From assembly GCF_003151255.1 (NCBI RefSeq), contig NZ_CP029481.1, forward strand, positions 3,572,501-3,636,500: a DNA stretch of 64,000 nucleotides, in the 5' to 3' direction. The position numbers were made by a program, and so were the translations under genes. This document shows, piece after piece, positions 8,524 through 55,931 of the stretch. The notes beneath the pieces are model-generated. The model did not search any database. It was not told the origin of the DNA and saw only the letters and a program-made list of their open reading frames with translations. Position 1 is the first letter of the stretch; each line of letters opens with the position of its first letter. The stretch is from Microvirga sp. 17 mud 1-3 (GTDB lineage: Bacteria; Pseudomonadota; Alphaproteobacteria; Rhizobiales; Beijerinckiaceae).

Positions 8524-8526
8524 GCG

Positions 8527-9237: not shown

Positions 9238-9263
9238 GGAAGGGTCTCCTTGAGGCGCTCCGG

Positions 9264-10082: not shown

Positions 10083-10972
10083 CGGGCGAGATCCTTCTTC
10101 AGCAGCAGGCGCGCCACCACCGACAGCGCCAGAATGGAAAGCGTGATGACCAGGGCTCCGGCCCAGGCGAGGGAGCGCCAGTTCTCATAGGGCGCCAGCG
10201 CGAACTGGTAGATCATCACGGGAAGGTTGGAGACGCCGCCCATCAGGTCCGGGCGGAACCAGAAATTGTTGTTGAGCGCTGTAAACAGCAGTGGCGCGGT
10301 CTCGCCGGCGATGCGGGCTGTGGCGAGTAGGATCCCGGTCACCATGCCGGCGCGGGCGGCACGCCAGCCGATATGGATGATGACGGTCGACATGGGAGCG
10401 CCCAGCGCCGCGCCTGCCTCGCGTAAGGAGCCTGGAACGAGGCGCAGCATGTCCTCGGTGGTGCGCACGATCACCGGCACGGCGATGATCGCGAGCGCGA
10501 CGCCGCCTGCCCAGCCGGAATAGCCGCCCAGCGGAGGCACCATGAGCGTATAGACGAACAGGCCGATGAGAATGCTGGGTGCCGCCAGCAGGATGTCGTT
10601 CACGAAGCGGATGACCTCGGCGAGTTTCGACCCCTTGCCGTATTCGGCCAGATAGGTCCCGGCGAGCACGCCGACCGGCGTCGCCACCACGATGCCGAGC
10701 AGGGTGAGGATGAAGCTGCCGACGATGGCATTGGCGATGCCGCCGCCTTCCGTGCCCGGACCGGGAGTTACGTGCGTGAAGACGTCCAGCGACAGGGCGC
10801 TGCCGCCCTCGTAAAGCAGCATCAGCAGGATCCAGCCGAGCACGAAGGCGCCGAGCGCCGTGAAGAGAGTGCAAACCACCTTGAGCGCCCGGTCCGCAAT
10901 CCGGCGGCCAGCGCGGACACGGCCCCAGGCCTGGGGCTGCTGCAGCGGAGCGTTCGGGGAAACGTCGTTCAT
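10079..10972 (-). CDS. pstA: Phosphate ABC transporter permease PstA
   Basis: This inner-membrane channel subunit pairs with PstC. It has 297 residues and about six membrane segments. The conserved cytoplasmic loop that contacts PstB is seen as [16 protein letters not shown] (about residues 180-195). I placed the start at 10972 (MNDVSP) because GAGGACG is 4-10 bp upstream; an ATG at 10987 is also in frame and overlaps the pstC stop. Confidence 0.93.
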
Positions 10973-10983
10973 TGTCCGTCCTC

Positions 10984-11955: not shown

Positions 11956-11990
11956 CCGCCGTACTCCGTTTTGAAGAGAGTGTCAGCCGC

Positions 11991-13034: not shown

Positions 13035-13124
13035 GAGACGTCTCCATGTTCATACGAGCGCGGCCGTTTCCGCTGATGTGCGTGGGCCGCGCCGGACTGC
13101 TATGGCTTCCCCGTTACGGGTCTA

Positions 13125-13152
13125 AGACACTTGGATGACACTCACGTGACAA
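13125..13152 (-). promoter_or_regulatory. Pho box upstream of pstS (three 11-bp repeats)
   Basis: On the minus strand TGTCA, TGTCA and TGTCT occur in strict 11-bp register (forward-strand positions 13147-13151, 13136-13140 and 13125-13129). The classical Pho box is two direct repeats of CTGTCAT-like heptamers at 11-bp spacing, so this would be one and a half to two overlapping boxes. It lies about 90 bp upstream of the pstS start, where PhoB would activate the operon. Confidence 0.8.
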
Positions 13153-13285
13153 CGTCGAAGGCCGCTCCTGGATGCATATCAGACCTTCCGAGGGGTTCCG
13201 CGCTGGCCGGACCGCCCTATGGTGAAGGGGGAGCGGAGCACGGGCGTGAGAGGACATTCATGAACCCTAAGGATAGGGTCCCAGC

Positions 13286-16200: not shown

Positions 16201-16483
16201 CCATGACGGCCCGTCCGGTCTGACCTGTTTGGAATCCGACCGCCACATCGACCTTCTCGTGACCGATGTCGGCCTGCCGGGCATGAACGGCCGCCAGCTT
16301 GCCGATGCGGCGCGCGAAAGGCGGCCCGACCTGAAGATCCTGTTCATCACCGGCTATGCGGAGAGCGCCGCCCTTGCGACCGGGTTCCTGGACCCCGGGA
16401 TGGAGATGATCACGAAGCCTTTCGCGGTCGAGAGCCTGATGCAGCGCATCCGCGCCATGATCGAGTCGACCCCCGACCGCTAG
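13286..16483 (+). CDS. Multi-PAS hybrid sensor histidine kinase with receiver domain
   Basis: The 1065-residue protein shows about five PAS domains (roughly 25-165, 178-300, 305-430, 435-560, 565-690), several ending in the PAC motif DVTERK. A HisKA segment follows, with phospho-acceptor H700 in [14 protein letters not shown]. Next come a HATPase domain ([38 protein letters not shown]) and a receiver domain with D994 ([10 protein letters not shown]). No membrane segments were seen, so it is probably a cytosolic sensor. The start is GTG at 13286 after AAGGATAGGG. It lies between phoR and pstS on the opposite strand. The signal sensed is unknown. Confidence 0.88.
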
Positions 16484-16502
16484 GAACCACCCGAAGGAAG
16501 CC

Positions 16503-17798
16503 TCAGGTTTCGGCGCTCGCGGGGAGAGTGATCGTAAAGCGCGCGCCCTGCCCCGGCTCGCTCGCAATGTCGAAACGGCCACGATGGCGGTTGACGATGT
16601 GCTTGACGATGGCAAGGCCGAGACCCGTCCCGCCCTTGTCCCGACTCTGCGCTCCGTCCACGCGGTAGAACCGCTCCGTCAGGCGCGGCAGGTGCTCGGG
16701 CGGGATGCCCGGCCCGTAATCCTGCACGGCGAGCACGGCCAGAGGCTTGCCGTCGGGGCTCTCGGTGCGCGACAGCTCGACCTCGACCCTGCCGCCGCTC
16801 TCGCCGTATTTCACAGCATTCTCGATCAGGTTCTCGCAGACGCGCAGAAGCTCGTCCCGATCGCCGGGAACGACCAGAGGCCGGTCGGGCAGGCGCGCCT
16901 GAATGAGCGTGCCGCGCTCCTGCGCCAGGGGCGTGAGCATCTCGATCATGTGCGTCGTGACGGCCTTGAGATCGACCGGCTCCGTCGGCGGCACATGGGC
17001 GCGCATCTCGATGCGCGACAGGGACAGAAGGTTGTCGATCAGCCGCTTCATGCGCTGGGCCTGCTCCCGCATGATCTCGAGGAAGCGTTCCCGCGCGGCC
17101 GCATCGTTGCGGGCCGGGCCCTGGAGAGTCTCGACGAAGCCGAGCAGGGATGCGAGGGGCGTGCGCAGCTCGTGGCTGGCATTGGCCACGAAGTCCGCCC
17201 GCATGGCCTCAAGGCGCCGGGTGGAGGTCAGATCGCGGAAGAAGAGCACGACCCCCGAGCGGCCGCCGAGATCCGCCGGGTTGCCGCGCAGGAGACCGAT
17301 ATGGACCTCGAAGGTCCGCTCCGTCGGGACGCGCTCGGAATATTCGACCTTCAGGGGCCCCTCACCGCTCAGCGCCCCCTCGATGCCGTCCAGGATATCG
17401 GGGCTGCGCAGCGCGAAGGAGAGCGGGTGGCTCGTCTTGAGGCCCGGCAGCATCGCCCGGGCGGCCTTGTTCGCTTCGACGACCAGGGAGCGCTGGTCGA
17501 CGAGGATCACCGGATCGGGGATATGGGCCAGGACTGCTTCCGCAAGATTGGAATGGCGGGCCTCTTTCGCCTTCAGGCGCTCGCCGTCCCTCATGGCGCG
17601 TGGACGGCCGAGCACCAGGGTTGCGAAGATCGCCGTGACGACCGCAATGGCGAGAAGCCAGATATCCGCATGGCCTCGCACGGCCGTTGCGACGAGTATC
17701 GTCGCTCCCACCACGAGGGCGCCGCCCAGGGCGGCGCTCCGCTCCGGGCCCAGGCCGCCAAGGCCGGAGGGCTTCCGGGTCTCGTCAGGTTCGCTCAT
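16503..17798 (-). CDS. phoR: Phosphate regulon sensor kinase PhoR
   Basis: This inner-membrane histidine kinase phosphorylates PhoB. The 431 residues comprise two hydrophobic segments (about 22-41 and 46-63), a PAS domain (about 85-195), HisKA with H209 in NASHELRTPL, and a HATPase domain (NLIENAVKYG, DYGPGIPPEHL, GGTGLGLAIVKH). The architecture and Pho context identify it as PhoR. Unusually, it is separated from pstS by an opposite-strand hybrid kinase gene. Confidence 0.92.
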   Translation of the reverse strand: MSEPDETRKPSGLGGLGPERSAALGGALVVGATILVATAVRGHADIWLLAIAVVTAIFATLVLGRPRAMRDGERLKAKEARHSNLAEAVLAHIPDPVILVDQRSLVVEANKAARAMLPGLKTSHPLSFALRSPDILDGIEGALSGEGPLKVEYSERVPTERTFEVHIGLLRGNPADLGGRSGVVLFFRDLTSTRRLEAMRADFVANASHELRTPLASLLGFVETLQGPARNDAAARERFLEIMREQAQRMKRLIDNLLSLSRIEMRAHVPPTEPVDLKAVTTHMIEMLTPLAQERGTLIQARLPDRPLVVPGDRDELLRVCENLIENAVKYGESGGRVEVELSRTESPDGKPLAVLAVQDYGPGIPPEHLPRLTERFYRVDGAQSRDKGGTGLGLAIVKHIVNRHRGRFDIASEPGQGARFTITLPASAET

Positions 17799-17860
17799 GG
17801 TCAGCTCGGCAGGACGATGCCCGTCTTCTAGAGGATGGGGCCTGGAAAGTCACTCGCGGC

Positions 17861-18913
17861 TCATACGTCCGGAACAGGCTCCTCGTCGTCCTCGGGCTTG
17901 AACTTGTCGCGCATGGACTGGATCCGGTTGCGGATCTCGTAGGCTCCGAGCAGCGCCAGGGCGACCACGAAGGGCACGAGATAGTAGCACAGCCGGTACA
18001 GCAGGAGCGCGCCCAGGATCGGCTCGCGCGGATAGCTCGACAGGGCCAGCAGGATCGTGGCTTCGAATACGCCCAGCCCACCGGGCGCATGGCTGGCGAC
18101 GCCCAGCATGACGGCGAAGATGTAGATGGCCACGAAGGTCTCGAAGCCGATATTGTGCCCGCCCGGCAGCAGCACGAACAGGACCGCGGCCCCGGCGCAG
18201 ACGTCCACAGCCCCGATCAGCATCTGGGCGACCGTGAGACGGAAGCCCGGCAGGTCAAGGCGCCAGCCCTGGATCTTCACGGCCCGTCGCTTGAGCGAGA
18301 CCCAGACGAGATAGGCCACGACCAGGACGGCCGCGACGAGCCCGACAAGCTGGTTGATCCAGATATTGGTATAGATGAGGCTCGCCACCTCGTCGGCCCG
18401 CCGGATCATGCTCGAGGCCAGGACGAGGGCCATTCCGAGCCAGAAGGTCACGCCGGCGATGACCGTGAGGCTCGCGACGCGCCCGGCGCTGATCCCGCGC
18501 GAGGAATAAATCCAGTACCGGACCGTACCGGCCGTCAGCAGGGGGAACCCTAGGGTAAAGCTGACCGCATAGCTCGTGAACGACGCCAGGGCCGTGGTGC
18601 GGTAAGGGATCTGCAGCCGGAGCTGCCGCAGCGCGATGGCATCGTAGCAGGTCAGCAAGCTGTAGCTGACGGTCGTGAACAGGATGGCCAAGCCGATCTG
18701 GCGCAGGCTGGCGGCCGTGAACGCGGCCTTGAGCTCATTGACGTCGATACCCGAAACGATGTGCCAGAGAACCACGAGGGAGGCCCCGAACAGCAGCAGG
18801 CTCCCGGCCATCCCGATCCAGGCGAACCGGCGCGAGCGCCGTTCCTTGGGGTGCAGGGCCTCGGCCGATGCTATCTCCGGAGGGGGAGCCGGAAGAGGTC
18901 TCATCTCATTCAT
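17861..18913 (-). CDS. Lysylphosphatidylglycerol synthase transmembrane-domain family protein
   Basis: The 350-residue integral membrane protein has about eight hydrophobic segments. It resembles the UPF0104 / LPG-synthase transmembrane family (YbhN-like), with features such as YAVSFTLGFPLLTAGTVRYW and HAPGGLGVFEATILL. Only the membrane part is present; the aminoacyl-transferase domain of MprF is absent, so lipid aminoacylation should not be assumed. The start is uncertain (18970, 18913 or 18904), and no clear ribosome site decides it. It lies 62 bp upstream of phoR on the same strand. Confidence 0.78.
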   Translation of the reverse strand: MNEMRPLPAPPPEIASAEALHPKERRSRRFAWIGMAGSLLLFGASLVVLWHIVSGIDVNELKAAFTAASLRQIGLAILFTTVSYSLLTCYDAIALRQLRLQIPYRTTALASFTSYAVSFTLGFPLLTAGTVRYWIYSSRGISAGRVASLTVIAGVTFWLGMALVLASSMIRRADEVASLIYTNIWINQLVGLVAAVLVVAYLVWVSLKRRAVKIQGWRLDLPGFRLTVAQMLIGAVDVCAGAAVLFVLLPGGHNIGFETFVAIYIFAVMLGVASHAPGGLGVFEATILLALSSYPREPILGALLLYRLCYYLVPFVVALALLGAYEIRNRIQSMRDKFKPEDDEEPVPDV

Positions 18914-23453: not shown

Positions 23454-23479
23454 GGGGAGCGACCGACTAAGAGAGGAAC

Positions 23480-23677
23480 CGGACGTTGGTCCTCGAGACA
23501 TCGAGGTGAAACGGGAACACGGTGCGGAATTTCCAATGCCGTGGCTGCCCCCGCAACTGTAAGCGGTGAGCGGCGGTCCTACATGCCACTGAATCTGCGG
23601 GCCCGACAAGCTCGAGATGATTTGGGAAGGCGGACCGTTCGCGATGACCCGCAAGCCAGGAGACCGGCCTGCGTCCG
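23480..23677 (+). promoter_or_regulatory. Cobalamin (B12) riboswitch upstream of btuB
   Basis: The plus strand carries the full signature. The closing stem is CGGACG (23480-23485) with CGTCCG (23672-23677). Also present are the GGTGAAACGGGAA region (about 23503-23515), the conserved GCCCCCGCAACTGTAAGCGG core (about 23546-23566) and the B12 box AGCCAGGAGACC (23654-23665). It ends about 45 bp before the btuB start, and the btuB ribosome site (GGAGGT) follows, so adenosylcobalamin would repress btuB expression. Confidence 0.95.
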
Positions 23678-23722
23678 AGCGTCAACTCGATTGTCCGCCG
23701 GTGGGGCGGGCAGGAGGTCTCC

Positions 23723-35265: not shown

Positions 35266-35292
35266 AAAAAAGGCCCCGCATGCCGCGAGGCC
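35266..35292 (-). terminator. Rho-independent terminator, probably the original tRNA-Glu terminator
   Basis: Read on the minus strand, GGCCTCGC (35292-35285) pairs with GCGGGGCC (35279-35272), followed by six T (35271-35266). No gene now lies immediately upstream of it. If the 10.6 kb element is removed by joining the two 18-bp repeats, the tRNA-Glu 3' end would sit about 17 bp before this hairpin. Confidence 0.75.
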
Positions 35293-35308: not shown

Positions 35309-35326
35309 TTGGCGCTCCCTAGGGGA
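35309..35326. repeat. Left attachment repeat (attL/attR partner)
   Basis: TTGGCGCTCCCTAGGGGA, identical to 45888-45905. It is the left border of the integrative element. Confidence 0.9.
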
Positions 35327-35414
35327 GCGGTTGCCAATTTCCTGTTTTCCTCAAATATCAGACATTTAGCCAAGCCTGACAGCATCGTTGTGTAGCAGAT
35401 TTGTGTGACGGCTG

Positions 35415-36890
35415 TCACGCTCCTTGAAATTGGGCTTGATTGTTTGTCTCCATCGTCTTCATGAGGTCGCCTAGCAGGGCGGCGGTATCGGTGTATTCCT
35501 GCTCGGTGAGTTCCCAGGCCGGGGTGACCGGGCTCGGCATGAGCGGCACGACGTTACGCCGCGCGTGGGGCTGGCGCAGCATCCGCTCGGTGCTGTCCTT
35601 GGTCAGCCGGGCCTCCTGGAGCATGGACGCGGCCCGCTTCTTGCCCGCCTCGATCTCGTCGCGCAGCCGGACCTGAGCCCGCTCCTCGGCGATCAGCAGG
35701 TTAGCCTCTTCCAGGGTCTTGCCCTGGCGCATCATCAGTTCGCGGCGGCGACGTTCCTCGCCGGAAAGCCCGTCGATGGCCTTGTCCACGGTGCGCCGGT
35801 TCCAGGCTTGGAAGAACCGATCCTTGAACGTCATCACGAAGCGGATCGACGGCAGGGACGGGGCCGGGTCGCGCTTCATCCAGGCGAAATGGGTGCCGAC
35901 GATGTTGGACCAGTCGGTGACGATCCATTCGAGGAAGCCGTGCAGGCTCGCGGCGTCCTGGGTCCATCTGGCGGCCAGGGCCGATTTGACCATGCCCATC
36001 TCGGTCTTGGTCCAGGCCGGGCAGACGGCACCGGGGACCTCGTCGAAGGCGCAGCCCCAGGCGGCGGTCCAGGTGCGCTGGAGGGCTCCGGGATTTTTCA
36101 GGGTCCTCGACGCCGTCTCGCGGGCGCTGGCGGCCGTTTGCGGGTTCGCCGGGGCCAGGGGACCCTTTGCCACCCGCTGGGCGTCTCCGAACGAAAATTC
36201 GCCATGATCGGCGATCCCGGTCCGTGGGCGATCTTGGCCGGACGGTTGAGCGGTAGGTTCCGGCTCGGGCTTGGCGAGAAGGTTTCCGGTTGGGCGCGAC
36301 CTGACCCGATAGGTGGCCTTCGGTTGTTCGGAAAGTTTGAGCGGATTATCCGACCCAGCGACGGCGGATGCCGGAGCTACTGTTCTTCTATCTGTTCCCC
36401 TAAAGTGTTCCTCTAAGAGGGGGGAGGGAAATCCCTCCCTCTGGGGGTTGGATTTCACTCCCTCGGAGGGTTGGTTTTCCGCTCCCCCTTGTAGACGCTT
36501 AGGTACGGCAAAGCTTGGTTTCCACCTCAGGTTCGGAGTGATGGTGAGGCCGTCCCGCTTGTTCGGCGCGATAGTGATTACTCCCAGCCGCTCCAAAGCC
36601 CGGAGTACCTCGGTGAGTTGCTTTTTCGTCTTGTTGAGCCCGGCCGGTGAAACAGAGGTGCCCTCGGACAGCGAACGGTAGGTGAACCGGTAGGTCTGGC
36701 GGCCCCAGCAAACCGTATGATCGATGATGTACGACAAGACCGCGTATTCACGGTCGGACAAGATGGCCCGCCACTCACGTGATAGGCGGCGCATCACGGT
36801 TAACTGGTGGACCGGGCTAGACAGGTCCTGGTTCGGCAGGTCCTTGGAGGCATCCAGACGCGGACGAGCAAATTCAACAATGTTGTTCAC
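35415..36890 (-). CDS. Putative replication initiator with winged-helix N-terminus
   Basis: The 491-residue protein has an N-terminal region (about 30-110) that looks like a winged helix of the phage replication-protein-O/RepA type: LSDREYAVLSYIIDHTVCWG, YRSLSEGTSV and LTEVLRALERLGVITI. A Pro/Ser-rich middle (about 140-250) and a charged helical C-terminal region follow. It starts at GTG 36890 with AAGGTGA upstream. Position at the element border, iterons and a candidate antisense RNA upstream support a replication role. This is inference; it could instead be a transcriptional regulator. Confidence 0.55.
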   Translation of the reverse strand: MNNIVEFARPRLDASKDLPNQDLSSPVHQLTVMRRLSREWRAILSDREYAVLSYIIDHTVCWGRQTYRFTYRSLSEGTSVSPAGLNKTKKQLTEVLRALERLGVITIAPNKRDGLTITPNLRWKPSFAVPKRLQGGAENQPSEGVKSNPQREGFPSPLLEEHFRGTDRRTVAPASAVAGSDNPLKLSEQPKATYRVRSRPTGNLLAKPEPEPTAQPSGQDRPRTGIADHGEFSFGDAQRVAKGPLAPANPQTAASARETASRTLKNPGALQRTWTAAWGCAFDEVPGAVCPAWTKTEMGMVKSALAARWTQDAASLHGFLEWIVTDWSNIVGTHFAWMKRDPAPSLPSIRFVMTFKDRFFQAWNRRTVDKAIDGLSGEERRRRELMMRQGKTLEEANLLIAEERAQVRLRDEIEAGKKRAASMLQEARLTKDSTERMLRQPHARRNVVPLMPSPVTPAWELTEQEYTDTAALLGDLMKTMETNNQAQFQGA

Positions 36891-36936
36891 TAGCTTTCAC
36901 CTTGACACTTCACCCTAGCAAGGCGGATAGTGACCC

Positions 36937-37017
36937 ACTTGCCCGATTATGGCAAGTCTACCTTGACAAAACTCAATGTAGAGCCCGCCGAACCCTAGCA
37001 CATTCGGCGGGCTTTTT
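36937..37017 (+). ncRNA. Candidate small antisense RNA divergent from the replication gene
   Basis: A TTGACA -35 (36902-36907), 18-bp spacer and GATAGT -10 (36926-36931) would start transcription near 36937. The product would be about 80 nt with two hairpins: ACTTGCC/GGCAAGT (36937-36943/36951-36957), then GCCCGCCGAA/TTCGGCGGGC (36983-36992/37003-37012) and five T. It contains no plausible ORF with a ribosome site. It would be antisense to any leader of the 35415-36890 gene. Plasmid copy-control RNAs have this layout. Confidence 0.4.
36983..37017 (+). terminator. Rho-independent terminator
   Basis: A perfect 10-bp stem GCCCGCCGAA/TTCGGCGGGC with a 10-nt loop is followed by TTTTT on the plus strand. 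There is no plus-strand protein gene upstream, which is why a small RNA is proposed. Confidence 0.85.
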
Positions 37018-37048
37018 CCATTTAGCATTGGATTGGCTCTTCGTTGAT

Positions 37049-37393
37049 GACAAAGACACTGTACTTTGCTTAACGATTACATAAAATCTGAAAATCGCTG
37101 CTGTCGCTGAAGCCAACGCCCTGACCAGCAAAGTTAAGTCGCCGTTAGATGTTCGCGGGCCGCGCTCTGAGTTCGAGCGGCCCAGCGGCACGTATGGCGC
37201 TCTACCTGATCCGCCCTCACTACCAAGCCCTCCGTTTTGCGCCTCTCCGACCTCGCTCCAGGCCGGGGATCGCCTTCGCTCGCCTGGACCTCGAAAATTA
37301 TTTCAGCACCTCCGCTATCCCTAAGTATTTGATATGTAACAATGTGAGACAAAGACAGTGTATGAGGCTAACTACGACAGTGTACGATGCTAA
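37049..37393. repeat. Three iteron-like repeats, consensus GACAnTGTAnnnnGCTnAA
   Basis: Copy 1 at 37049-37074 and copy 2 at 37348-37372 both begin GACAAAGACA, then (C/G)TGTA, and end GCT(T)AAC. Copy 3 at 37376-37393 reads GACAGTGTACGATGCTAA. All have the same orientation; copies 2 and 3 lie 22 bp apart. A nearby palindrome TGTCTGGACA is at 37401-37410. They fill the 567-bp gap between the replication-like gene and the RHH-like gene, where no other gene was found. Confidence 0.6.
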
Positions 37394-37457
37394 ATTTACT
37401 TGTCTGGACACATGTTTAGAGTTGTGCGAAGCACTATTAACTTTTGGAGAACGACGA

Positions 37458-37667
37458 ATGCACATGCGACAATCACAGACTATCTCGATGCGGGTTCAAT
37501 ACGCCTTCGTGCAGGCTCTCGACAAAGAAATTGATGCCAGAAAACTGGCAGGATGGCGGGGACATGCTTGCACGCGGTCCGCCGTGATCCAGGACATTGT
37601 TAGAGATGCTCTCGGAATTTTGAAACCGGGTGCAACAATTACATCAGGAAGAGGAACGAAACCATGA
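37458..37667 (+). CDS. Ribbon-helix-helix-like small protein
   Basis: The 69-residue protein starts at ATG 37458 after GGAGAA. The segment QTISMRVQYAFVQALDK followed by TRSAVIQDIVRDALG looks like a CopG/Arc-type ribbon-helix-helix: a beta strand, helix A, a turn and helix B. Such proteins bind DNA as dimers and often control plasmid copy number or partition. The open frame extends upstream to 37149 but lacks plausible protein content. The stop overlaps the next start as ATGA. Confidence 0.6.
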   Translation: MHMRQSQTISMRVQYAFVQALDKEIDARKLAGWRGHACTRSAVIQDIVRDALGILKPGATITSGRGTKP

Positions 37668-38185
37668 TCCCCTACGGCGACCCCAGAAAGACCCCACAAG
37701 CAGCCGGAGACACGGAACGCGCCCAGGTTGCCCGGAGACGCGCGAAGGAAGCCAAGGGCATCTTCGGCGGCCCGGCTTCGGAGCGGGGCCTTGGTCTCAA
37801 CTTCCGCGCCCCGGACAAGGCCCCGGCCTGGACCACGCCCGGCGGCACCACCACCATGAGCTTCTACGACACGGTTTCCCGGAGCGAGACCGCCCAGCAG
37901 GCCGAAGCCCATGACCGCCTCGCCCGGCTTCCCAAGTCCATCCAGCAGGCGGCCCAGGCCCAGGGCATCGCGGACCTCGCCTTGCTTGAGATCGCGGGAG
38001 CCATCCACCGCAAGAGTGAGATCATGGGTGGCGAGCGCGTCCAGGCTTTCGCCTCCGACCTCGCCAAGGCCACCGGCACCACGACCCAGCGGGCGGAGCA
38101 GTTGATAGACGAGGCGGTCCGGCGCGGCCTCATCGAACGCACGGCCCAGGTCCCCGGCGGCGGTTTCTTCCGGTCCCACCTCTGA
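37664..38185 (+). CDS. Hypothetical protein, coupled to the RHH-like gene
   Basis: The 173-residue protein starts in the ATGA overlap with the preceding gene. The N-terminal half is basic and Gly/Pro-rich. The C-terminal part (about 95-170) is helical, with ATGTTTQRAEQLIDEAVRRGLIER, which resembles a winged-helix recognition segment. GC content is high, unlike the dGTPase part of the element. No family is recognised. Confidence 0.55.
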   Translation: MIPYGDPRKTPQAAGDTERAQVARRRAKEAKGIFGGPASERGLGLNFRAPDKAPAWTTPGGTTTMSFYDTVSRSETAQQAEAHDRLARLPKSIQQAAQAQGIADLALLEIAGAIHRKSEIMGGERVQAFASDLAKATGTTTQRAEQLIDEAVRRGLIERTAQVPGGGFFRSHL

Positions 38186-38363
38186 TCCCCACCGGATGCG
38201 GCGTCCCCGATCCTCCGCCGCATCTGTCGCCCCCGGTCCGATTTGACGGCGGAGCCGGGGGCACCCTTTCGAGACTGTGCCATGCCTTCGACGCACCTCA
38301 TCGCCTGCACCGGCCTGGAGCCGGGTCAACAGCGCCTCGCCCTCTTATGTCCGGTGAACTGAC

Positions 38364-38681
38364 ATGAGCCCCCCCGACCATCTTGCCCGCGCCCAGGCAG
38401 TCCGATCCGACCTCGCCCCCGTGGCGGAAGCCCTGGAGCAATGCGGCGCGGCCGTCATCCTCGAAACCATCCCTGACCGCGCCCTTGCGGCCGTGCTCAT
38501 GTCCGCCACCTTCACCGGCTCCCCTGCCCTGGCGCACAAGCTCGTCCGCCGGATCGGAGACGCGGCCTACGCCCAGGGCATCGATCTACGCGGCATCGTC
38601 TGTGACCATGACGACCTCCGGCCGGATCAACAGCGCATCGGCTTCATGTGCCTCTGCCCGACCGGAAAACTGGCGGCCTGA
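38364..38681 (+). CDS. Hypothetical protein (105 aa)
   Basis: The 105-residue product reads as a well-composed globular protein, with ALEQCGAAVILETIPDRALAAVLM and DLRGIVCDHDDLRPDQQRIGFMCL. The ribosome site before ATG 38364 is weak; a 26-codon frame (38282-38362) ends one base before it and may be a leader or noise. It lies in a plus-strand run of element genes. Function unknown. Confidence 0.5.
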   Translation: MSPPDHLARAQAVRSDLAPVAEALEQCGAAVILETIPDRALAAVLMSATFTGSPALAHKLVRRIGDAAYAQGIDLRGIVCDHDDLRPDQQRIGFMCLCPTGKLAA

Positions 38682-38685
38682 TCCC

Positions 38686-39351
38686 ATGTCCTCCCGGTGT
38701 TCCTGTTGCTCGCACCCCGAACGGCCCGCCCTCGATGCGGCGTTGCGCTCCGGCGTGGCCCTGCGCACCGTGGCCGAAGGGTTCGGCGTGTCGAAAACCG
38801 CCCTGATCCGGCACCGCGACAACCACATGGACACCCAGGTCCCTCGTGTGCGCCATCGGGAGCGCCCGGCGGCCCTATCTGCGCCCCTCAATGTGCATGA
38901 GAAGATGCGTAGAGCCCTCTGGATGCGGGAGCAGGGGTTCACCCGCTCCGAGATCGCCGAGGCCCTGACCATCACCGAGGGCTATGTCTCGGAGCTTTTT
39001 GCCCGCGCCCGTGATGAAGCCCTAGCGGCCGTCAAGGAAGCCACGGCGGAGCAGCTTGTCACCGATCTGCGCACCACTCACGCCCTCCAGATGGCGAAGC
39101 TCGCGGCCCTCTATGACCAAGCGGAGAAGGTCGGGGACCGGAAAACCATGGTGGCCGTCCTCCGGGAGCGCCGTCACCACAACGAAAGCCTACGGGAACT
39201 GTATCGGACCCTCGGAGCCTTCGACCGCTTCACACGCCACAGCCAATCCGAGCCCACGAACCCCCTGGCGAAAGCCGCCATCGACTGGATGAACGAGGTT
39301 GCAGACCTCTTCAACGGCACAGGCGATATGCTTGACGCTGTGGAGCCCTAA
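38686..39351 (+). CDS. Double helix-turn-helix protein, unknown role
   Basis: The 221-residue protein has two HTH-like stretches: residues about 21-46 (GVALRTVAEGFGVSKTALIRH) and about 84-110 (GFTRSEIAEALTITEGYVSELF). An N-terminal CSCCSH cluster and a helical C-terminal half (about 111-200) complete it. It starts 4 bp after the previous stop. Phage small-terminase or transposase-accessory proteins can look like this, but no large terminase or transposase is adjacent, so it is left unnamed. Confidence 0.6.
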   Translation: MSSRCSCCSHPERPALDAALRSGVALRTVAEGFGVSKTALIRHRDNHMDTQVPRVRHRERPAALSAPLNVHEKMRRALWMREQGFTRSEIAEALTITEGYVSELFARARDEALAAVKEATAEQLVTDLRTTHALQMAKLAALYDQAEKVGDRKTMVAVLRERRHHNESLRELYRTLGAFDRFTRHSQSEPTNPLAKAAIDWMNEVADLFNGTGDMLDAVEP

Positions 39352-39370
39352 GCCTCATAGGCGGGGCCTA

Positions 39371-39521
39371 TGGTCCGTTGCGTGGTCCGCTTCCCGGCCT
39401 TGGTCCGGTCCGCTCGAAATCCCAGGAAATCAGGCCATTTCCCTCGACAATTCCAGCGGCGTGGTCCGCTTCGCCCCGTGGTCCGGTCCGCTTGGTCCGG
39501 TTGGTCCGCTTCCCTGGTCCG
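39371..39521 (+). repeat. Cluster of TGGTCCG heptamers
   Basis: Eight TGGTCCG copies in one orientation start at 39371, 39383, 39401, 39462, 39479, 39493, 39502 and 39515; two further GGTCCG copies start at 39407 and 39485. They fill the 214-bp gap between two plus-strand genes, where I see no coding sequence with a ribosome site. They could be protein-binding iterons; function unknown. Confidence 0.7.
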
Positions 39522-39565
39522 CCTCCCATGGCTAAGGCTCGATCCGGCCAAAGGGGGGCCAATCC

Positions 39566-39994
39566 ATGCACCGGACTATCTGCCTGTTCCTGGCCTTCGT
39601 GGTGGCCATCGCCTCGGCCCTGCCGTATGCGGGAGCCTTGCCGGTCCCTCCCCCTGATCTGCGGAGCCCCGTGACTTACGTGCTGGCAACCCTTTCTGGG
39701 AGCGCCGTAGGCATGTTTCGGGACCCCTTCGCATGGGTCTCCCTGGTCCTGATCGCGGCCATCAGCATCCGTCACCCCAGGCTAGGGCTCTTGGCCGCCG
39801 TCGCCGCTGCGATCTTAGGCGGGCTTATGGTCTGGTCCTGGCAGGATGAAATCGGCTTCCCCGTCTTCAGCCGTCTGGTTTCAGGGGCCCGAAAGGCTGC
39901 CCTCCTCTACCTGATCGCGGCTCCTATTGCGGGCATCATCGGGTTGTTTGTTCCCCGATCTGAACCGGAGCCTCCAGCTTCTCCGGCCACATAG
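39566..39994 (+). CDS. Small membrane protein (142 aa)
   Basis: The 142-residue protein has hydrophobic segments at about 3-25, 36-50, 56-90 (possibly two) and 111-130, so it is probably an inner-membrane protein with four or five helices. The first segment could be a signal peptide (ASALPYAGA). GGGG-rich sequence precedes ATG 39566. No family is recognised. It closes the plus-strand run of the element. Confidence 0.5.
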   Translation: MHRTICLFLAFVVAIASALPYAGALPVPPPDLRSPVTYVLATLSGSAVGMFRDPFAWVSLVLIAAISIRHPRLGLLAAVAAAILGGLMVWSWQDEIGFPVFSRLVSGARKAALLYLIAAPIAGIIGLFVPRSEPEPPASPAT

Positions 39995-40015
39995 GGACGC
40001 CTCGCGGCAGTCTGG

Positions 40016-40456
40016 TTAGCAACGTGCCAAGTGAACCACAGAGTAGAGATGCGCCCCCATCTCGACGATGGGCTCTGCCTTATACTTTGCTTTGAGCATG
40101 CCGAGCCGATGCAGTAGCAGAACCGCAAGCACGGAGTAGGATGCGGACACGTTGCCCACGAGGTGCTGGCTAGGAGGTTTGTTGCCGTAGGAGCCGATAT
40201 TTGCCAGCCGCGCGGCTGTCGTAAGGTGCTCGCGTGTCCCGGTCTCCAGGAGATCGAGGAAGGTGGAGTGCCAAGCCATGGCCTGCACTATCTCTCGCGA
40301 TGCGTCCCAGAGGGCATTCGCGATATTGTCTTGGGTATCCGTCGTTCCGTCGCTGAAATGACCAACGAGATTGGCGACGTTGTTCAAGTGCCAGTCTGCT
40401 ATCTCATCAAATCTGGACTTACCCTCCAGCGACCTAAGCCAACTAAACAGCCCCAT
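40016..40456 (-). CDS. Hypothetical protein (146 aa)
   Basis: The 146-residue protein begins MGLFSWLRSLEGKSRFDEIADWHLNNVANL. GGGGTGA lies before ATG 40456. The body is helical, with a hydrophobic stretch SYSVLAVLLLHRLGML (about 107-122). GC content is lower than that of the flanking core genes. It lies 42 bp downstream of the serine recombinase gene on the same strand and may be cotranscribed. Function unknown. Confidence 0.5.
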   Translation of the reverse strand: MGLFSWLRSLEGKSRFDEIADWHLNNVANLVGHFSDGTTDTQDNIANALWDASREIVQAMAWHSTFLDLLETGTREHLTTAARLANIGSYGNKPPSQHLVGNVSASYSVLAVLLLHRLGMLKAKYKAEPIVEMGAHLYSVVHLARC

Positions 40457-40498
40457 AATTCACCCCACAGTACTGGACCAAACGGGACAGTAAGGGGC

Positions 40499-41170
40499 TC
40501 ATGCAGCCCGCTCCATTAGCCGTCCGACTGATTTCGCATGCCACTGACCACCACGCGGCGTCTGCACTCCCCGCGCATTGAGAGCATCGGCGATCCTCCG
40601 GAGAGACGTGACCCCGGCGGCCTCAATGCTGCGCACGATGGGGAGAACATTCGCGGCGAAGGCATCGGCTGCCTGTGCATTGGCGGCCGCTCCGAGCTTC
40701 TGGGCCTCGCCTAGGTTCTTCCTGTTGCCGAGCTTTGTCCCGGCCGCTTTCTTCGCCTGGAGGGCGGCCTTGGTCCGGGAGGCAATCAACGCCCGCTCTT
40801 TCTCGGCAAGGGCCGCATAGAGGTGGAGCACGAAAGGGTCCGTATCGGCCCCAAGCTCCGCCACCAGGAACGGCACCCGCTGCGCCATCAGGCCAGAGAT
40901 GAAATGCACGTCACGGGACAGGCGGTCCAACTTCGCCACGATGACGGGGGCCTTAAGTTTCCGGGCCGTAGCGAGGGCCTTGGCAAGCTCCGGACGGCGA
41001 TCCAGGGCATCGGAGCCCTTGCCAGTCTCAACTTCGGTGAAGATCGCGGCGACCTCGATGCCTTCGGCGGCTGTGAAGCGCTCGATGGCCTCACGCTGCG
41101 CATCCATGCCCAGGCCGCTCTTGCCCTGCTTCGCGGTGCTGACCCGGATGTAAGCGACGGCCTGTTTCAT
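40499..41170 (-). CDS. Serine recombinase (resolvase/invertase family)
   Basis: The 223-residue protein has the resolvase catalytic domain: nucleophile S11 in [27 protein letters not shown], and [10 protein letters not shown] with catalytic Arg/Asp (about 79-87). Short helices and a C-terminal HTH-like end follow ([25 protein letters not shown]). It is a small resolvase-type enzyme, not a large serine integrase. GGGGATCACG precedes the start. It may resolve multimers of the element or invert DNA. Confidence 0.9.
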
Positions 41171-41328
41171 CGTGATCCCCTAGCCCGGAGCGCTCCCCAG
41201 CGCCTTCCGTGGCAACACAATATGAACGTTTAGAGTTGCCACGCAAGCGAAATTTTAAGGCATTTTCTGGGGCATACCCCCCAAATCTAGGTGGACGTAC
41301 CCTTCATATTTAGGTAGAGATCGCGGGT

Positions 41329-41363
41329 GGGGCCAAGCTGATCGCCAAACCTAACTTGGCCCC
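41329..41363. repeat. Inverted repeat upstream of the 129-residue gene
   Basis: GGGGCCAAG (41329-41337) is the inverse of CTTGGCCCC (41355-41363). It lies between the divergent serine recombinase and 129-residue genes and could be an operator or part of a recombination site. Confidence 0.4.
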
Positions 41364-41387
41364 TGCCAACCACGAAAGGATCGAGAC

Positions 41388-41777
41388 ATGCTCATTTCCG
41401 CAGCCGACGCCGCACTTCTTACCGCCTACAATCTCCACTTGAAAGGGTTGGAGATGGGCAAGCCGCTTAACCGCGCACGCGCTTCTGAAAAGTCCATCAA
41501 GCGCCTCGCCACTCGCCAACGCCTAGATGGTCGGTTCATGGAGGACTACATCACGGAGCTTCTAGCGCTGGGATGGGTAGCCTTCTGGAGTGGGGAAGTC
41601 TGGGGGTTCCAACGATGTAAGCCCGTCAACGGGTGGACGAATGTCAACTCGAAACGCGCAATCGATGCTGTGCGCACCGATGGGCTTAGTGTTGCCCTCG
41701 CAAGGGCGAGGAAGGCATTGGGCCTTTCAGACGACTTGGACTTTGATATCGATGACGAAAAAGAAAACGACGAATAA
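41388..41777 (+). CDS. Hypothetical protein (129 aa)
   Basis: The 129-residue protein starts at ATG 41388 after AAAGGA. It has a central segment EDYITELLALGWVAFWSGEVWGF (about 47-69) and a very acidic tail (SDDLDFDIDDEKENDE). No family is recognised. It is divergent from the serine recombinase and is followed by a strong terminator, so it is a single-gene unit. An acidic tail of this kind is sometimes seen in DNA-mimic or immunity-type proteins, but that is only a suggestion. Confidence 0.55.
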   Translation: MLISAADAALLTAYNLHLKGLEMGKPLNRARASEKSIKRLATRQRLDGRFMEDYITELLALGWVAFWSGEVWGFQRCKPVNGWTNVNSKRAIDAVRTDGLSVALARARKALGLSDDLDFDIDDEKENDE

Positions 41778-41795
41778 CCATTAGATTACATGGGC

Positions 41796-41827
41796 AGCGG
41801 GTCCGTTTGACGGACCCGCTATTTTTG
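41796..41827 (+). terminator. Rho-independent terminator
   Basis: AGCGGGTCCG/CGGACCCGCT form a perfect 10-bp stem with loop TTTGA, then A and five T. It lies 18 bp after the 129-residue gene. Confidence 0.9.
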
Positions 41828-41891
41828 TATCGGGCATGTGCGTCATTGACATACGCCCTGCTCCAGCGGAGGGCATATACTTAGGAGCAGG

Positions 41892-42056
41892 AGCGACTTT
41901 GACCGTCTGTTGGCTGGATTGACCGAGGCCCCTACCGAACCCGTACAGGAGACCTCTGGGCCGAACCCTACTTCCCGTCCCTCTATCCCGGACCGCATTG
42001 ACGTGGCGGCTATCCAGCGGCGGATTGGCCTCTCACAACCGGCCTTCGCCGCCTAG
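41892..42056 (+). pseudogene. Remnant of an HTH antitoxin/Xre-type regulator
   Basis: The plus-strand frame reads SDFDRLLAGLTEA, then a 20-residue linker, then IDVAAIQRRIGLSQPAFAA and a TAG stop. This is the start of the HTH found in HigA/Xre-type antitoxin proteins, which would continue with a recognition helix; here it ends after the first helix-turn. The sequence after the stop (RYAAQY) does not continue it. No in-frame ATG was found upstream. A hairpin GCCCT/AGGGC (41856-41874) lies just before it. Confidence 0.5.
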
Positions 42057-42101
42057 CGTTACGCTGCGCAATACTGAACCCCGATCGCGGAGCCCAAAGT
42101 G

Positions 42102-43571
42102 CTACAAAGGCTTGTGAACGGTTAAGCCCTGCGCCCCAAACAGGCGGCTATAAAATTCAATCGCGTATCTGTCAGTCATTCCCGCGATGAAGTCGCAAAC
42201 CGTCCTATACCGCTCCACTTCAGTGCAACCGCGATAGATCGCCCGGTAGTCGTCAGGCAACAACCTACCCTCTCTATCGCCAATCAGAGCATTGAAGATG
42301 CGCGATACAATGTCACGCCCTCTATATTCAACAACCTGTAGCGCAGGAGCACGAATGATTGCTTGATATGTGATGTTCTTCAGAACCTCGACCATGATAA
42401 ACGTAGAAACTTCCAGCCGAGCTTGATGCAACTGCGGATAGTCTGGATGTGCTACAACTTCAATGCCGTCTAGGAACGCACTAACAAGATCAGATGTGAA
42501 GTCAGTTCTATAATATCCGTTGTGCGCGAGCTTTCGAGACAATTCTTGCGCCTCTGCCGCGAAGAACATCTTCTTAGCTTCGGCTTCAATTTTACGGTTC
42601 TTCAGTAGAGCCTTCTGATCGTCACCAAATTCAAACACATCGTAGAAGATGTAAAGCAAGATTTCGCGCACGTCAGCGGTTGTCATCTTACTCACGCCGC
42701 TCGCTGTGCCGTAGTACTTTTCCAGGCGGCTGTTTATCGTCTCGACGGCGTTCTCGTATATTATCGGATCGAGAACAAAGAGATCGAGGGGGGTTAAAAA
42801 CCCACTCTTGAAGACGTCCTCTAGATCGTATGTCGAGTATGCAATATCATCCGCGATGTCCATAATAGAACATTCGATGGTTTTGAAATTGCCCTGATAC
42901 TTTTCATCTCCAAGGACGGCGGCTTTTACCCGCCGGACAAGATCGATGTCTTCACGATAATAACCTTTCATCGCCCCGTCCTTTTTCGGGCGATCGCCTT
43001 TCCTCTCAGGTATAGGGTCATCATATTTGAGTACAGATGCAAGCGATCTAAATGTTAAGTTTAATCCACATCTGAGATCGCGGCCATTCTCATCAAAAGG
43101 GACACGCTCGCCATTCGTTAGCGCAATGGTCTCTTTCTTCTCTAACCTCGATATAATCCTGAGAGTTTGCGCGTTGCCTTCGAAGCCGCCATGGCCTTGC
43201 ATGCACTCATCAAGCGCCTCCTCGCCATTATGGCCGAATGGCGGGTGCCCAAGATCGTGAGCCAGCCCTGCAAACTCTACGATTTCGGGCTCAAGCTTGT
43301 GGGTGGCAAAAAGCGGTTCCGTAGCGTTCAGCTTGATCGCAATTGACTTTGCAATCTGCGCCACCTCTAGAGAGTGGCTAAGCCTATTCCGAAAAAAGTC
43401 GCTCTCGTTCCCGGGGAAAACCTGTGTCTTTCCCTGAAGCCGACGAAAGCTCGCAGAGTGAACCAACCGAGCGTAGTCCTTACGCCAAGGACTACGATAG
43501 CTTTCGGTAGAAGATTGCTCGCTTAATGGCGCGACGCGCTCCCGATCTCGATCGGAATAGAGGCTTACCAT
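42102..43571 (-). CDS. HD-domain deoxyguanosine triphosphate triphosphohydrolase
   Basis: It is predicted to split dGTP (perhaps other dNTPs) to the nucleoside and triphosphate. The 489 residues match Dgt-type enzymes. HD motifs are H66 (LSHSLEVAQ), H105-D106 (AHDLGHPPFGH) with H109 and H114, followed by FEGNAQTLR and, later, DIADDIAYSTYDLEDVF. The gene is AT-richer than the core and is probably of foreign origin. It lies 42 bp downstream of the 83-residue gene. Some dGTPases protect bacteria against phage by depleting dNTPs. No strong ribosome site is visible at 43571. Confidence 0.87.
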   Translation of the reverse strand: MVSLYSDRDRERVAPLSEQSSTESYRSPWRKDYARLVHSASFRRLQGKTQVFPGNESDFFRNRLSHSLEVAQIAKSIAIKLNATEPLFATHKLEPEIVEFAGLAHDLGHPPFGHNGEEALDECMQGHGGFEGNAQTLRIISRLEKKETIALTNGERVPFDENGRDLRCGLNLTFRSLASVLKYDDPIPERKGDRPKKDGAMKGYYREDIDLVRRVKAAVLGDEKYQGNFKTIECSIMDIADDIAYSTYDLEDVFKSGFLTPLDLFVLDPIIYENAVETINSRLEKYYGTASGVSKMTTADVREILLYIFYDVFEFGDDQKALLKNRKIEAEAKKMFFAAEAQELSRKLAHNGYYRTDFTSDLVSAFLDGIEVVAHPDYPQLHQARLEVSTFIMVEVLKNITYQAIIRAPALQVVEYRGRDIVSRIFNALIGDREGRLLPDDYRAIYRGCTEVERYRTVCDFIAGMTDRYAIEFYSRLFGAQGLTVHKPL

Positions 43572-43613
43572 AATCTGATTACACTACTTACTAGCGAGAT
43601 CGGGAGGTCGTTA

Positions 43614-43865
43614 CTATTTCACTACAAGAGGCTTGCTCACTGTAACACGCACGACGCTTTTTCCTTTCGCGCGATGCTTCACAGTTTCCCACTTACCATT
43701 CTGAGTGTTTACCACAGCGTCTCGTAGGACCGTTAATTCCCGCCAGACAGATTTGCGGAGAGCGCGGCTATCGTCATCCGAACTGATCTGCTTGCCCATC
43801 CGCTTGGCTGCTGAGACAACTGCACTTTCAGGCATTTGAGAACTCCCCCTCGGTGGCACGGCCAT
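43614..43865 (-). CDS. Small basic protein upstream of the dGTPase
   Basis: The 83-residue protein (or 73 from ATG 43835, which has GGGGGAG upstream; ATG 43865 has GGAG) is basic, with a helical centre (RALRKSVWRELTVLRDAVV) and a Lys/Val-rich end. No family is recognised. It probably shares a transcript with the dGTPase. Whether it is a regulator, partner or DNA-binding protein cannot be told from sequence. Confidence 0.5.
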   Translation of the reverse strand: MAVPPRGSSQMPESAVVSAAKRMGKQISSDDDSRALRKSVWRELTVLRDAVVNTQNGKWETVKHRAKGKSVVRVTVSKPLVVK

Positions 43866-44010
43866 GTTAGCTCCAACACTCGTTACTGAGAAGACGCAAA
43901 CTTAGCAATAAGGCCTCCGCAGGCCGCGACAGCCCTTGCCCCAGGATAACCCTGGAACCCTCAAGTTTGTTTCTGTGAGTTCAGCCTTAAGCGAGGCGGT
44001 ACCTAATTAC

Positions 44011-45813
44011 CTATCCCCTGGGCTCCCTTGGGAGATGCGATAGGTCAACAGGAGCCACGACCTTGTTCAGTTCTGTGGCAAGACGAGCAACAGAGTGACC
44101 CGCCCCATATCTTCGTCCGACACTCGACCCAGCACCATGCCCTGTCAGAGCGTCATGAACATCCTCTGACAGCCCTGCATCCCGGCACATATCTTTGAAC
44201 AGATGCCGGAACGAATGGAACACCTTTCTAGGGTCCTGAATGCCAACAGCCTTGCTCCTGAGATAACCATTAAACCACTGTGAGAAGGCAGCCGATCGCG
44301 CTCTTCCCTTTGCAGATTGCACCTCTGGCCAGAGATCGCGGTTTTCGTTGCTGCTGGCCACTCGAACACCCTCGATGTATTCCAAAAAGCCAAGGCGACG
44401 AAGCTCCGAATGGATAGGCAGCTTCCTGATGCTGGTCCTGGTTTTCACGGTGCGCCCACCGGACGTGGCAATATCGAGATAAGCTAGACCTGATCTATCG
44501 ACATGGATGTCGCAAACGCGGAGTTGAGCTAACTCGGCGAGACGCGCTCCCGTGAACAAGGCTAGGAGGGGCAGCCAAAATTGCGCTTCGCCTTGGCCAC
44601 CTCGGAACCGCTTGCCCGATCCATGCACAGGCCCATTGACAAAGATCATGCGCAGTTCGTCGGAACTAAACGGAAGACGGCCCTCTTCGGCGGTGCTGTC
44701 AGATGCGATCTTGACGCTTGGGAAGTAGTTGGGCCAACCGGCTGCCTCTTCGAGATCGCTTTCCTTTTTTGCTGCCTCGATGATGGCTGAGAGCAACTGA
44801 AACGACTTATTGATGGTGCCCGCAGTACGGGGCGGGTAGACGCTCAGGTCTTGTTTGAGCAGTTCCGGCACCGTCAACTTTGCAAGTTTTGTGGGCAGAC
44901 GCGCTGGGATACGAACCAGGGCGTCACTGTATTCCTTCACCCGTCGCTTCGTCATTTCTCCGATATGGAGATCGCCATGAAGCTCGATGAATTGCCGGAC
45001 CGCAGTCTCAGCTTCCTTTGCGGTTAATTCGCGCGGGCGCTTACTACCCCGCGCCCCTGAGCCACTACGCCAAGACGCCAGTGCCTCTGAGAGGCGTGGG
45101 CCGTGCTGATCCTGCGCGGTTGGTCGAGAACCAGGAGCAAATAAGGGGTCCTGAGGGATGAAGGGCTGTCCGTTCAGTTCGCACAGGGCCAGACGGCTCC
45201 CCTCAATGGCGGCCCGCCTCACCAACCGAGTGAACTCACGATATTGATCGCTCGTCCTATCGACATCCACGGTTGGCAGCACCCGCTGAATGACACCCGC
45301 TTTCTCGAACTTCTTCGGCCACCCAGCCTGCATCAAGATATGATCGGCTGCCCCTTGGACGCTTTCCGCCCACTGCTCTTTATCCCGATCCTGTAGACGG
45401 GAGAGGGCGTCGGTCCACTCATCAATAAGCTCGCCTCTATCGATCTCTTCAGTTGGCCGATCAACAGCAATTGGCTCAAATACGTCCTTGAAATATCCGA
45501 CTGCCATCCGCTCAAGCTCGGTCTGAGAGACGCGTGAGAAGGCTTGTCTGGACAATTTGTCTTGAAGGCTCAGCTTGGCCTTTCCCGTCCGGCGCAACTC
45601 ATCGAAATGCGCCTCTAGTTCGGCAAGCCGCAGATTTCGCTGCCGCCGGGCTTCATCCCGATTGCGCGTGCCAAGGCTTACAAAGACCTTATCGCCGCCA
45701 TAGGCCGCGACAATGTCGGTTGGAACCCGCATGTTGAGATAATAGTTGCCGCCCTTTCCCCGCCGGTAAAGGTACGCGTCTTTCGGCATGAGTTCCCCGC
45801 TCATGTGTGACAC
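44011..45813 (-). CDS. Tyrosine recombinase (integrase) of the tRNA-Glu element
   Basis: It catalyses site-specific integration and excision between the 18-bp repeats. The 600-residue protein has an N-terminal arm-binding part (LYRRGKGGNYYLNMRVPTDI, about 15-34), a core-binding region (about 240-360) and the catalytic domain. Catalytic residues are R424 in TGARLAEL, H533 and R536 in HSFRHLF, H559 in TGHG, and Y569 in RRYG. Its start lies 75 bp from the right repeat and it is transcribed away from the tRNA. A spare ATG at residue 4 or 9 is possible. Confidence 0.95.
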   Translation of the reverse strand: MSHMSGELMPKDAYLYRRGKGGNYYLNMRVPTDIVAAYGGDKVFVSLGTRNRDEARRQRNLRLAELEAHFDELRRTGKAKLSLQDKLSRQAFSRVSQTELERMAVGYFKDVFEPIAVDRPTEEIDRGELIDEWTDALSRLQDRDKEQWAESVQGAADHILMQAGWPKKFEKAGVIQRVLPTVDVDRTSDQYREFTRLVRRAAIEGSRLALCELNGQPFIPQDPLFAPGSRPTAQDQHGPRLSEALASWRSGSGARGSKRPRELTAKEAETAVRQFIELHGDLHIGEMTKRRVKEYSDALVRIPARLPTKLAKLTVPELLKQDLSVYPPRTAGTINKSFQLLSAIIEAAKKESDLEEAAGWPNYFPSVKIASDSTAEEGRLPFSSDELRMIFVNGPVHGSGKRFRGGQGEAQFWLPLLALFTGARLAELAQLRVCDIHVDRSGLAYLDIATSGGRTVKTRTSIRKLPIHSELRRLGFLEYIEGVRVASSNENRDLWPEVQSAKGRARSAAFSQWFNGYLRSKAVGIQDPRKVFHSFRHLFKDMCRDAGLSEDVHDALTGHGAGSSVGRRYGAGHSVARLATELNKVVAPVDLSHLPREPRG

Positions 45814-45887
45814 CTTTGTGTGACAGGTTGAGCCGAGAATGCTTGATAACTGAGGAGGTTAAGGCAATCAAAGGCCTTATCGAACCT

Positions 45888-45905
45888 TTGGCGCTCCCTA
45901 GGGGA
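45888..45905. repeat. Right attachment repeat in the tRNA-Glu 3' end
   Basis: TTGGCGCTCCCTAGGGGA, identical to 35309-35326. On the minus strand it comprises the end of the T-arm, the 3' acceptor strand, the discriminator and CCA of tRNA-Glu plus one base. Confidence 0.9.
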
Positions 45906-45964
45906 CTCGAACCCCTGTTTTCGCCGTGAGAGGGCGACGTCCTAGACCGCTAGACGAAGGGAGC
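45889..45964 (-). tRNA. tRNA-Glu (anticodon CTC)
   Basis: Read from 45964 on the minus strand, GCTCCCT pairs with AGGGAGC. The anticodon stem TCGCC/GGCGA encloses the loop CTCTCAC, giving anticodon CTC. The T-loop is GTTCGAGTC, the discriminator is G, and CCA is encoded (45891-45889). The 3' 18 bp are duplicated at the far end of the integrated element, so the tRNA remains intact after integration. Confidence 0.95.
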
Positions 45965-55782: not shown

Positions 55783-55931
55783 GTCATTCCATCCTTACAG
55801 ATGGGCGCCTCTCGTTGGGGAGAGGTGTCCCGCCGACAGGTATGGGGGAGCGGGCCCGGCCCGTCAAGACAATTCGGCGCCACCCCGGACGGACGATCAT
55901 CCCGGCCTGCCGCGAAAGACCGGCCGCACCA

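Follow-up and report, generated by a model that had tools for sequence, protein, structure and literature searches.

A candidate integrative replicon with a variable defence-cargo slot in a tRNA-Glu gene of Microvirga, and its relatives in other tRNA genes

What kind of element occupies a transfer RNA (tRNA) gene of Microvirga sp. 17 mud 1-3 is the question raised by a 64,000-nucleotide stretch of its genome (NZ_CP029481.1, positions 3,572,501 to 3,636,500 of the forward strand; hereafter the window), in which an insertion of 10,579 bp, counted from repeat start to repeat start, adjoins the complete gene for tRNA-Glu(CTC). The insertion is present once in the single-contig 4.40 Mb genome. We regard it as probably a site-specific, non-conjugative integrative replicon that has an exchangeable slot for anti-phage cargo and is one of a tRNA-borne family in Microvirga and related genera; its status as a precisely bordered integrative element is nearly certain. 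The positions of its features are given in Table 1.

A preliminary description of the locus, made from the window's sequence, had reported identical 18-bp repeats, one of them in the 3' end of the tRNA, enclosing a block that runs from a tyrosine recombinase at the tRNA to a replication-initiator-like gene at the other end. Both genes were found and both repeat copies are exact; the repeat comprises the last 17 nt of tRNA-Glu(CTC) plus one base. Neither strand of the window holds a third copy with up to two mismatches, the chance expectation being about 2e-6 exact matches, and a similar test on random 76-nt stretches of the studied loci gave a repeat of at least 18 bp for 1 of 300. The integrase matched DUF6538 and, below the Pfam cut-off, Phage_integrase, and its match to the PHROG integrase had an E value of 5e-22. 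A transposon was rejected, as no terminal inverted repeats were present among the 25 longest pairs and the integrase is of the tRNA-site type.

The joined flanks of the window were compared with 34 loci of the same genus (36 relatives had the locus, and two near contig ends were left out). With lenient scoring the native junction is intact at 11 of the 34 loci, the left flank following the tRNA immediately and continuing for 40-65 bp past the 18-mer; stricter scoring leaves four (L073, L082, L090 and L091), with alignments of 58-68 bp and 74-76% identity that span the 18-mer. At the remaining loci similarity stops 0-9 bp from the 18-mer, and the flank differs or the site is occupied. The gene metZ lies so near the tRNA in G001 (1.6 kb) and G005 (0.13 kb) that there is no space for the element. 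The preliminary description had predicted an empty site in relatives, as is seen here, and had named as contrary outcomes the block in all close relatives or an empty site nowhere, neither of which was observed. Because the matching flank directly follows tRNA-Glu in some relatives, the terminator-like hairpin outside the distal repeat is probably, as read from its sequence, the tRNA's own terminator, displaced by 10.6 kb. Three different further insertions were found in the same tRNA-Glu(CTC) gene, of 12.6 kb in G002 (L086, 6131-18754), 18.0 kb in G035 (L074, 729-18777) and 10.3 kb in G007 (L093, reverse complement, 8499-18843); they have tRNA-end repeats of 18-48 bp, and the site is used repeatedly. 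Vsr-, methylase- and helicase-like ORFs (open reading frames) were seen by eye in the G035 insertion. Hot spots at tRNA genes have been described in S. meliloti (PMC11476347).

An element of 9,589 bp occupies the same tRNA-Glu gene in Microvirga makkahensis KCTC 23863 (G336), between identical 18-bp repeats (L133, 344-361 and 9933-9950). This sister, in the same tRNA with the same repeats, and the intact junctions in relatives together support an integrative element. Integrase, serine recombinase, o105 and o221 are 79-92% identical between the two, and the o173-like protein 40% (Table 1). The element DNA at the distal repeat, repeat included, is 74% identical over 99 bp, and from repeat to integrase the window, M. 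makkahensis and M. aerophila have nearly the same DNA. Three blocks lack similarity to the sister, namely 41248-44032 (dGTPase, 83-aa ORF and o129), 39512-40496 and the greater part of 35408-38188 (rep with its control region); on both sides of each, the two elements are alike. These three variable slots, together with small orphan ORFs and with integrase copies that are short or stray in relatives (67 residues in G017; M. aerophila), are what a prophage or plasmid remnant, now a static genomic island, might leave. We consider such a remnant quite unlikely: the frames of integrase, serine recombinase, Rep and dGTPase are open, motifs are present by eye in integrase, serine recombinase and dGTPase, the repeats are exact, and movement is suggested by a sister in another species whose backbone is 79-92% identical. 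In both sister elements the distal att core (around 35309-35328, minus strand) lies inside the perfect 17-bp palindrome CGCTCCCCTAGGGAGCG; the tRNA copy of att is not palindromic over the same 17 bp.

Where the window element has the dGTPase and the 83-aa ORF, the first slot of the sister holds AriA/AriB (PARIS), with the genes for the AriA ATPase and the DUF4435 protein AriB adjacent. The preliminary description had spoken of a foreign-looking dGTPase operon; the dGTPase is there, and the G+C fraction across it is 0.48-0.53, against 0.60-0.73 in the profiled chromosomal flanks. A separate chromosomal dGTPase of the same genome is 41% identical to that of the element, and all 48 genomes of the genus that were searched have a dGTPase match; the element type (at least 64% match) was found in the genus only in the window genome and in G015 (64%). 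An island around a housekeeping dGTPase was rejected in view of this separate enzyme and the rarity of the element type. A Shewanella dGTPase inhibits phage T7, and dGTPases can defend alone, as outlined in PMC12265719. The 142-aa and 129-aa proteins were also matched in G027 and G007, where tblastn found no other element protein in the surroundings. The serine recombinase that had been noted in the block was recognised by Pfam, PHROGs and NCBIfam; its 234 viral relatives make it too common to inform, and no locus was found in viral contigs for the integrase or o221.

The replication module was analyzed at the distal end. Rep gave weak hidden Markov model matches of O type, and tblastn matched it to the Rhizobium phages RHph_I4 (2e-25), L338C (two records) and P11VFA (1e-15), to plasmid p7 of R. 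bangladeshense (7e-23) and weakly to an Aeromonas phage (1e-3). All matching Rhizobium records are 108-110 kb long, and in the three loci opened (p7, RHph_I4 and L338C) the rep relative stands two genes ahead of one for a DnaB-like helicase, after which comes a DNA polymerase. Judged by similarity, Rep is a phage-type initiator related to that of the ~109 kb Rhizobium phages. A single-sequence search of IMG/VR with Rep returned no relative; the four-row profile A3 found one contig there, of the same size as the phage L338C genome. The intergenic region beside rep holds both a candidate antisense RNA to the rep leader and iteron-like repeats. The former consists of a promoter-like TTGACA-18-GATAGT followed by an 85-nt stretch that contains three hairpins, with a T run after the final one; its fold has a z score of -6.0 (0 of 200 shuffles as stable), and its Rfam match stayed below threshold (20.6 bits against 49), which leaves a known RNA family unsupported. 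It is a good candidate for the antisense RNA of the preliminary description. Of the iterons claimed there, two adjacent 22-bp copies hold up (18/22 identical; none of 1000 shuffles did as well), and the third copy is distant and weaker (16/22). Similarly, the claimed ribbon-helix-helix (RHH)-like protein has the resemblance by eye, and no family match in Pfam, PHROGs or NCBIfam.

The distal gene of the sister encodes a 441-aa protein unrelated to Rep, rolling-circle-like and unrecognised by Pfam, PHROGs and PADLOC; its family yielded only single stray Pfam matches. Among plasmid records, this initiator has partial matches of 27% in two R. ruizarguesonis plasmids, and no match was returned for o221, o173, the o221-like protein of G153, or the sister-type initiators P0015 and G153. 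Another reading is an integrative mobilizable element, moved by the conjugation machinery of another element via an unrecognised oriT or relaxase. This is improbable for the window element: the rolling-circle-like initiator is absent from its genome, TATA-binding proteins score higher, and no relaxase family was matched among the ORFs scanned. Of 11 ORFs scanned against Pfam and 10 each against PHROGs and NCBIfam (some small ORFs left out), none matched a structural or lytic family, a relaxase or a secretion family such as type IV, in agreement with the earlier statement that phage structural and conjugation genes are lacking.

Based on this content, replication after excision is likely. The integrase would recombine the 18-bp attP with the 3' end of tRNA-Glu, and the excised circle would replicate via its phage-type initiator under restraint from the antisense RNA; the serine recombinase may resolve multimers. 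The dGTPase could lower dGTP upon phage infection. Helper phage, mobilisation and transformation are possible routes from cell to cell.

Further elements were sought through the sister's initiator and o221, not through defence genes. Of 397 genomes, 6 have a match to the initiator (in one case weak and with stops) and 28 a match to o221, mostly short and weak; beyond the initiator set, the o221 loci of G580 and G575 were opened and the short loci of G601, G395 and G660 inspected. Via the initiator, four loci were obtained, two in tRNA-Met (9,525 and 21,508 bp) and two in tRNA-Ala (23,565 and 16,563 bp). Six elements, window and sister included, are thus bordered by exact tRNA 3'-end repeats of 18-23 bp. 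Left out of the border count were G604, because of a contig end, and G575, where neither tRNA nor integrase was seen; G580, a seventh element found with o221, was counted as unbordered, no exact repeat being found in the stretch fetched. M. makkahensis holds two family elements (L133 in tRNA-Glu and L230 in tRNA-Ala) with different cargo. PADLOC labelled cargo in 6 of the 7 elements, and in 5 of the 6 bordered ones. Its labels are dGTPase in the window, AriA and AriB in the sister, RT, HEPN and HTH (helix-turn-helix) genes of type IX plus a type I specificity subunit in G232, a GmrSD-type nuclease with a CBASS cyclase and 2TM effector in G341, and a type II methyltransferase, accompanied by a GmrSD_N protein, in the contig 34 element of G336; G580 lies beside DISARM and ZacB/ZacC genes. 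The tRNA-Met element of G153 (9,525 bp) encodes a DUF4238 protein. These elements likely constitute a family whose defence cargo is exchangeable and which we did not find described; a search of the open-licence literature (titles and abstract beginnings) returned no description of it. The earlier suggestion of a new integrative plasmid or satellite family fits this comparison, in which a related backbone goes with different cargo. The defence-cargo theme, the initiator swap and the phage kinship of the initiator are additions to it.

The backbone protein o221 bears on how such elements might travel. Its predicted model has two HTHs and a long helical hairpin, with a small-terminase-like fold match, which is suggestive only of a small-terminase-like protein, and distant relatives of o221 were found near phage terminase genes. 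Neither observation is decisive; both make plausible a satellite resembling the phage-inducible chromosomal islands (PICIs), induced by a helper phage, replicated by the phage-type initiator and, with o221 serving as its own small terminase, packaged in the capsids of the helper, a reading we hold to be somewhat unlikely. Slightly more doubtful is a new alphaproteobacterial group of satellites, integrated in tRNA genes, with integrase, serine recombinase and their own small-terminase-like packaging protein (o221), initiator swaps (O-like or rolling-circle-like) and rotating defence (dGTPase, PARIS, CBASS, RT-based, DISARM). In other genera, an RHH-like ORF followed by an o173-like one (L248, 282-1030, in G395) and an o221-like gene preceded by an o105-like ORF (L247, 1172-2229, in G601) were seen by eye, and the gene set therefore looks like an old shared module. 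Relatives of o221 and of the sister-type initiator (P0002/P0010 and P0006/P0012) lie on equally long metagenome contigs (~6.7 kb and 75.9 kb), a hint that metagenomes contain further elements, or small plasmid forms of them. Elsewhere in the window's own genome (C1, 2992032-2995133; L239, 6033-9134), a large-terminase-like gene stands beside a portal-like ORF in a cluster that by eye is gene-transfer-agent-like.

Several points weigh against a replicating element with anti-phage cargo that is one of a family. The dGTPase scored 373.6 bits with the NCBIfam model antiphage_dGTPase, below the cut-off of 400, and passed with the broader TIGR01353 (357 against 152); it is labelled by PADLOC, whose dGTPase model may also take in housekeeping enzymes. 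The DUF4238 protein, the sole cargo ORF scanned in the 9,525-bp tRNA-Met element, had no PADLOC match. One of nine control proteins outside the elements (a sigma factor) was matched by PADLOC, the tenth protein of the control set being an HsdS inside the G232 element, and, as the ORFs were chosen by eye and without genome-wide background, the counts are not a formal enrichment test. Rep is an orphan: no protein reached E<=0.001 among 7,997 word-sharing candidates scored of 5.8 billion proteins, and in the order only 1 of 297 genomes, its own, has it. Finally, M. aerophila has an 83-84% identical integrase (L095, 13385-17149) with a conserved attP arm, one att copy matching at 17/18 and then a partial AriA-like ATPase. 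No tRNA directly adjoins it, the nearest found being a tRNA-Ser ~2.4 kb off; none of nine other element proteins searched was found in that genome, and the 39.8 kb read contains no second att copy with up to three mismatches. The locus reads as a secondary or decayed insertion, so that some integrase copies may be strays or in decay.

Integrative replicating plasmids such as pSAM2 combine tRNA integration with their own replication initiator, as does the window element. Unlike them, it has defence cargo and no transfer gene was found in it. The Rhizobium phages L338C, RHph_I4 and P11VFA and plasmid p7 share with it an initiator of 25-31% identity; however, they are ~109 kb replicons, and the initiator is the sole shared protein found. 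Defence-carrying satellites are known mostly from enterobacteria, vibrios and Gram-positives. The PICMI satellites of Vibrionaceae, as described in PMC10803314, are likewise small, with an integrase, a replication gene, no capsid genes and a defence hotspot that includes PARIS, but they target fis, whereas the target here is tRNA-Glu; among the ORFs scanned against Pfam there was no match to AlpA or to a DUF3987/DUF5906 primase, so that of the PICMI combination of int, alpA and that primase only the integrase was found. P4-like satellites, as described in PMC9122126, carry a defence locus beside the integrase, with systems that vary by copy and PARIS among the cargo; by contrast, no psu or P4-type primase was matched among the ORFs scanned here, and the initiator is O-like in the window and rolling-circle-like in the sister. 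The PICIs, as described in PMC6092414, resemble our element in integrase, replication module, the specific att site and the lack of structural genes found. They differ in size, stated as 12-15 kb and thus larger than either element in tRNA-Glu, and in that the att site here is also used by other elements. A PICI also has a master regulator of AlpA or Stl type; HTH proteins are present here, none of them matching AlpA in Pfam.

In the group from Microvirga and related genera the borders are exact, the att sites can be predicted and there is a slot for cargo. New defence genes can be sought in the slot, examples being the DUF4238 protein of 348 aa, o129 and the 83-aa ORF by the dGTPase, and the two elements that share one att site and have different replication initiators are a clean case.

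Table 1. Features of the insertion and its borders, in window coordinates; identities refer to the sister element of M. makkahensis unless stated otherwise.
Feature	Position	Strand	Remark
Terminator-like hairpin	35272..35292	minus	outside distal repeat
Distal att repeat, 18 bp	35309..35326		exact 18-mer match; overlaps 17-bp palindrome CGCTCCCCTAGGGAGCG (minus strand)
Rep, 491-aa O-like initiator	35415..36890	minus	weak O-like matches; tblastn to Rhizobium phages
Candidate antisense RNA to rep leader	promoter-like 36902-36931, RNA ~36938-37022	plus	terminator-like hairpin at end
Two adjacent 22-bp repeats, iteron-like	37349..37392	plus	weaker third copy 37050-37071
69-aa ORF, RHH-like by eye	37458..37667	plus	no family match (scanned within longer frame)
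o173, winged-helix-like	37664..38185	plus	MarR_2 below cut-off; homologue 40% identical
o105, backbone gene	38364..38681	plus	79% identical
o221, backbone gene	38686..39351	plus	about 80% identical
142-aa hydrophobic protein	39566..39994	plus	in second variable slot (39512-40496)
146-aa protein	40016..40456	minus	no family match; in second variable slot
Small serine recombinase	40499..41170	minus	92% identical
o129	41388..41777	plus	PHROG 26231 (function unknown); in variable cargo slot
dGTPase, candidate anti-phage effector	42102..43571	minus	second copy in genome; HD motif present
83-aa ORF, upstream of dGTPase	43614..43865	minus	no family match
Tyrosine integrase, DUF6538 N-terminus	44011..45813	minus	85% identical; 83% in M. 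aerophila
att repeat, 18 bp, at tRNA-Glu 3' end	45888..45905		exact 18-mer match
tRNA-Glu(CTC), complete, adjoining insertion	45889..45964	minus

Outside the insertion, the window contains a cobalamin riboswitch (23470-23686, plus strand, 132.6 bits) and a serC leader (55784-55835, minus strand, 72.1 bits), both above the Rfam gathering score.

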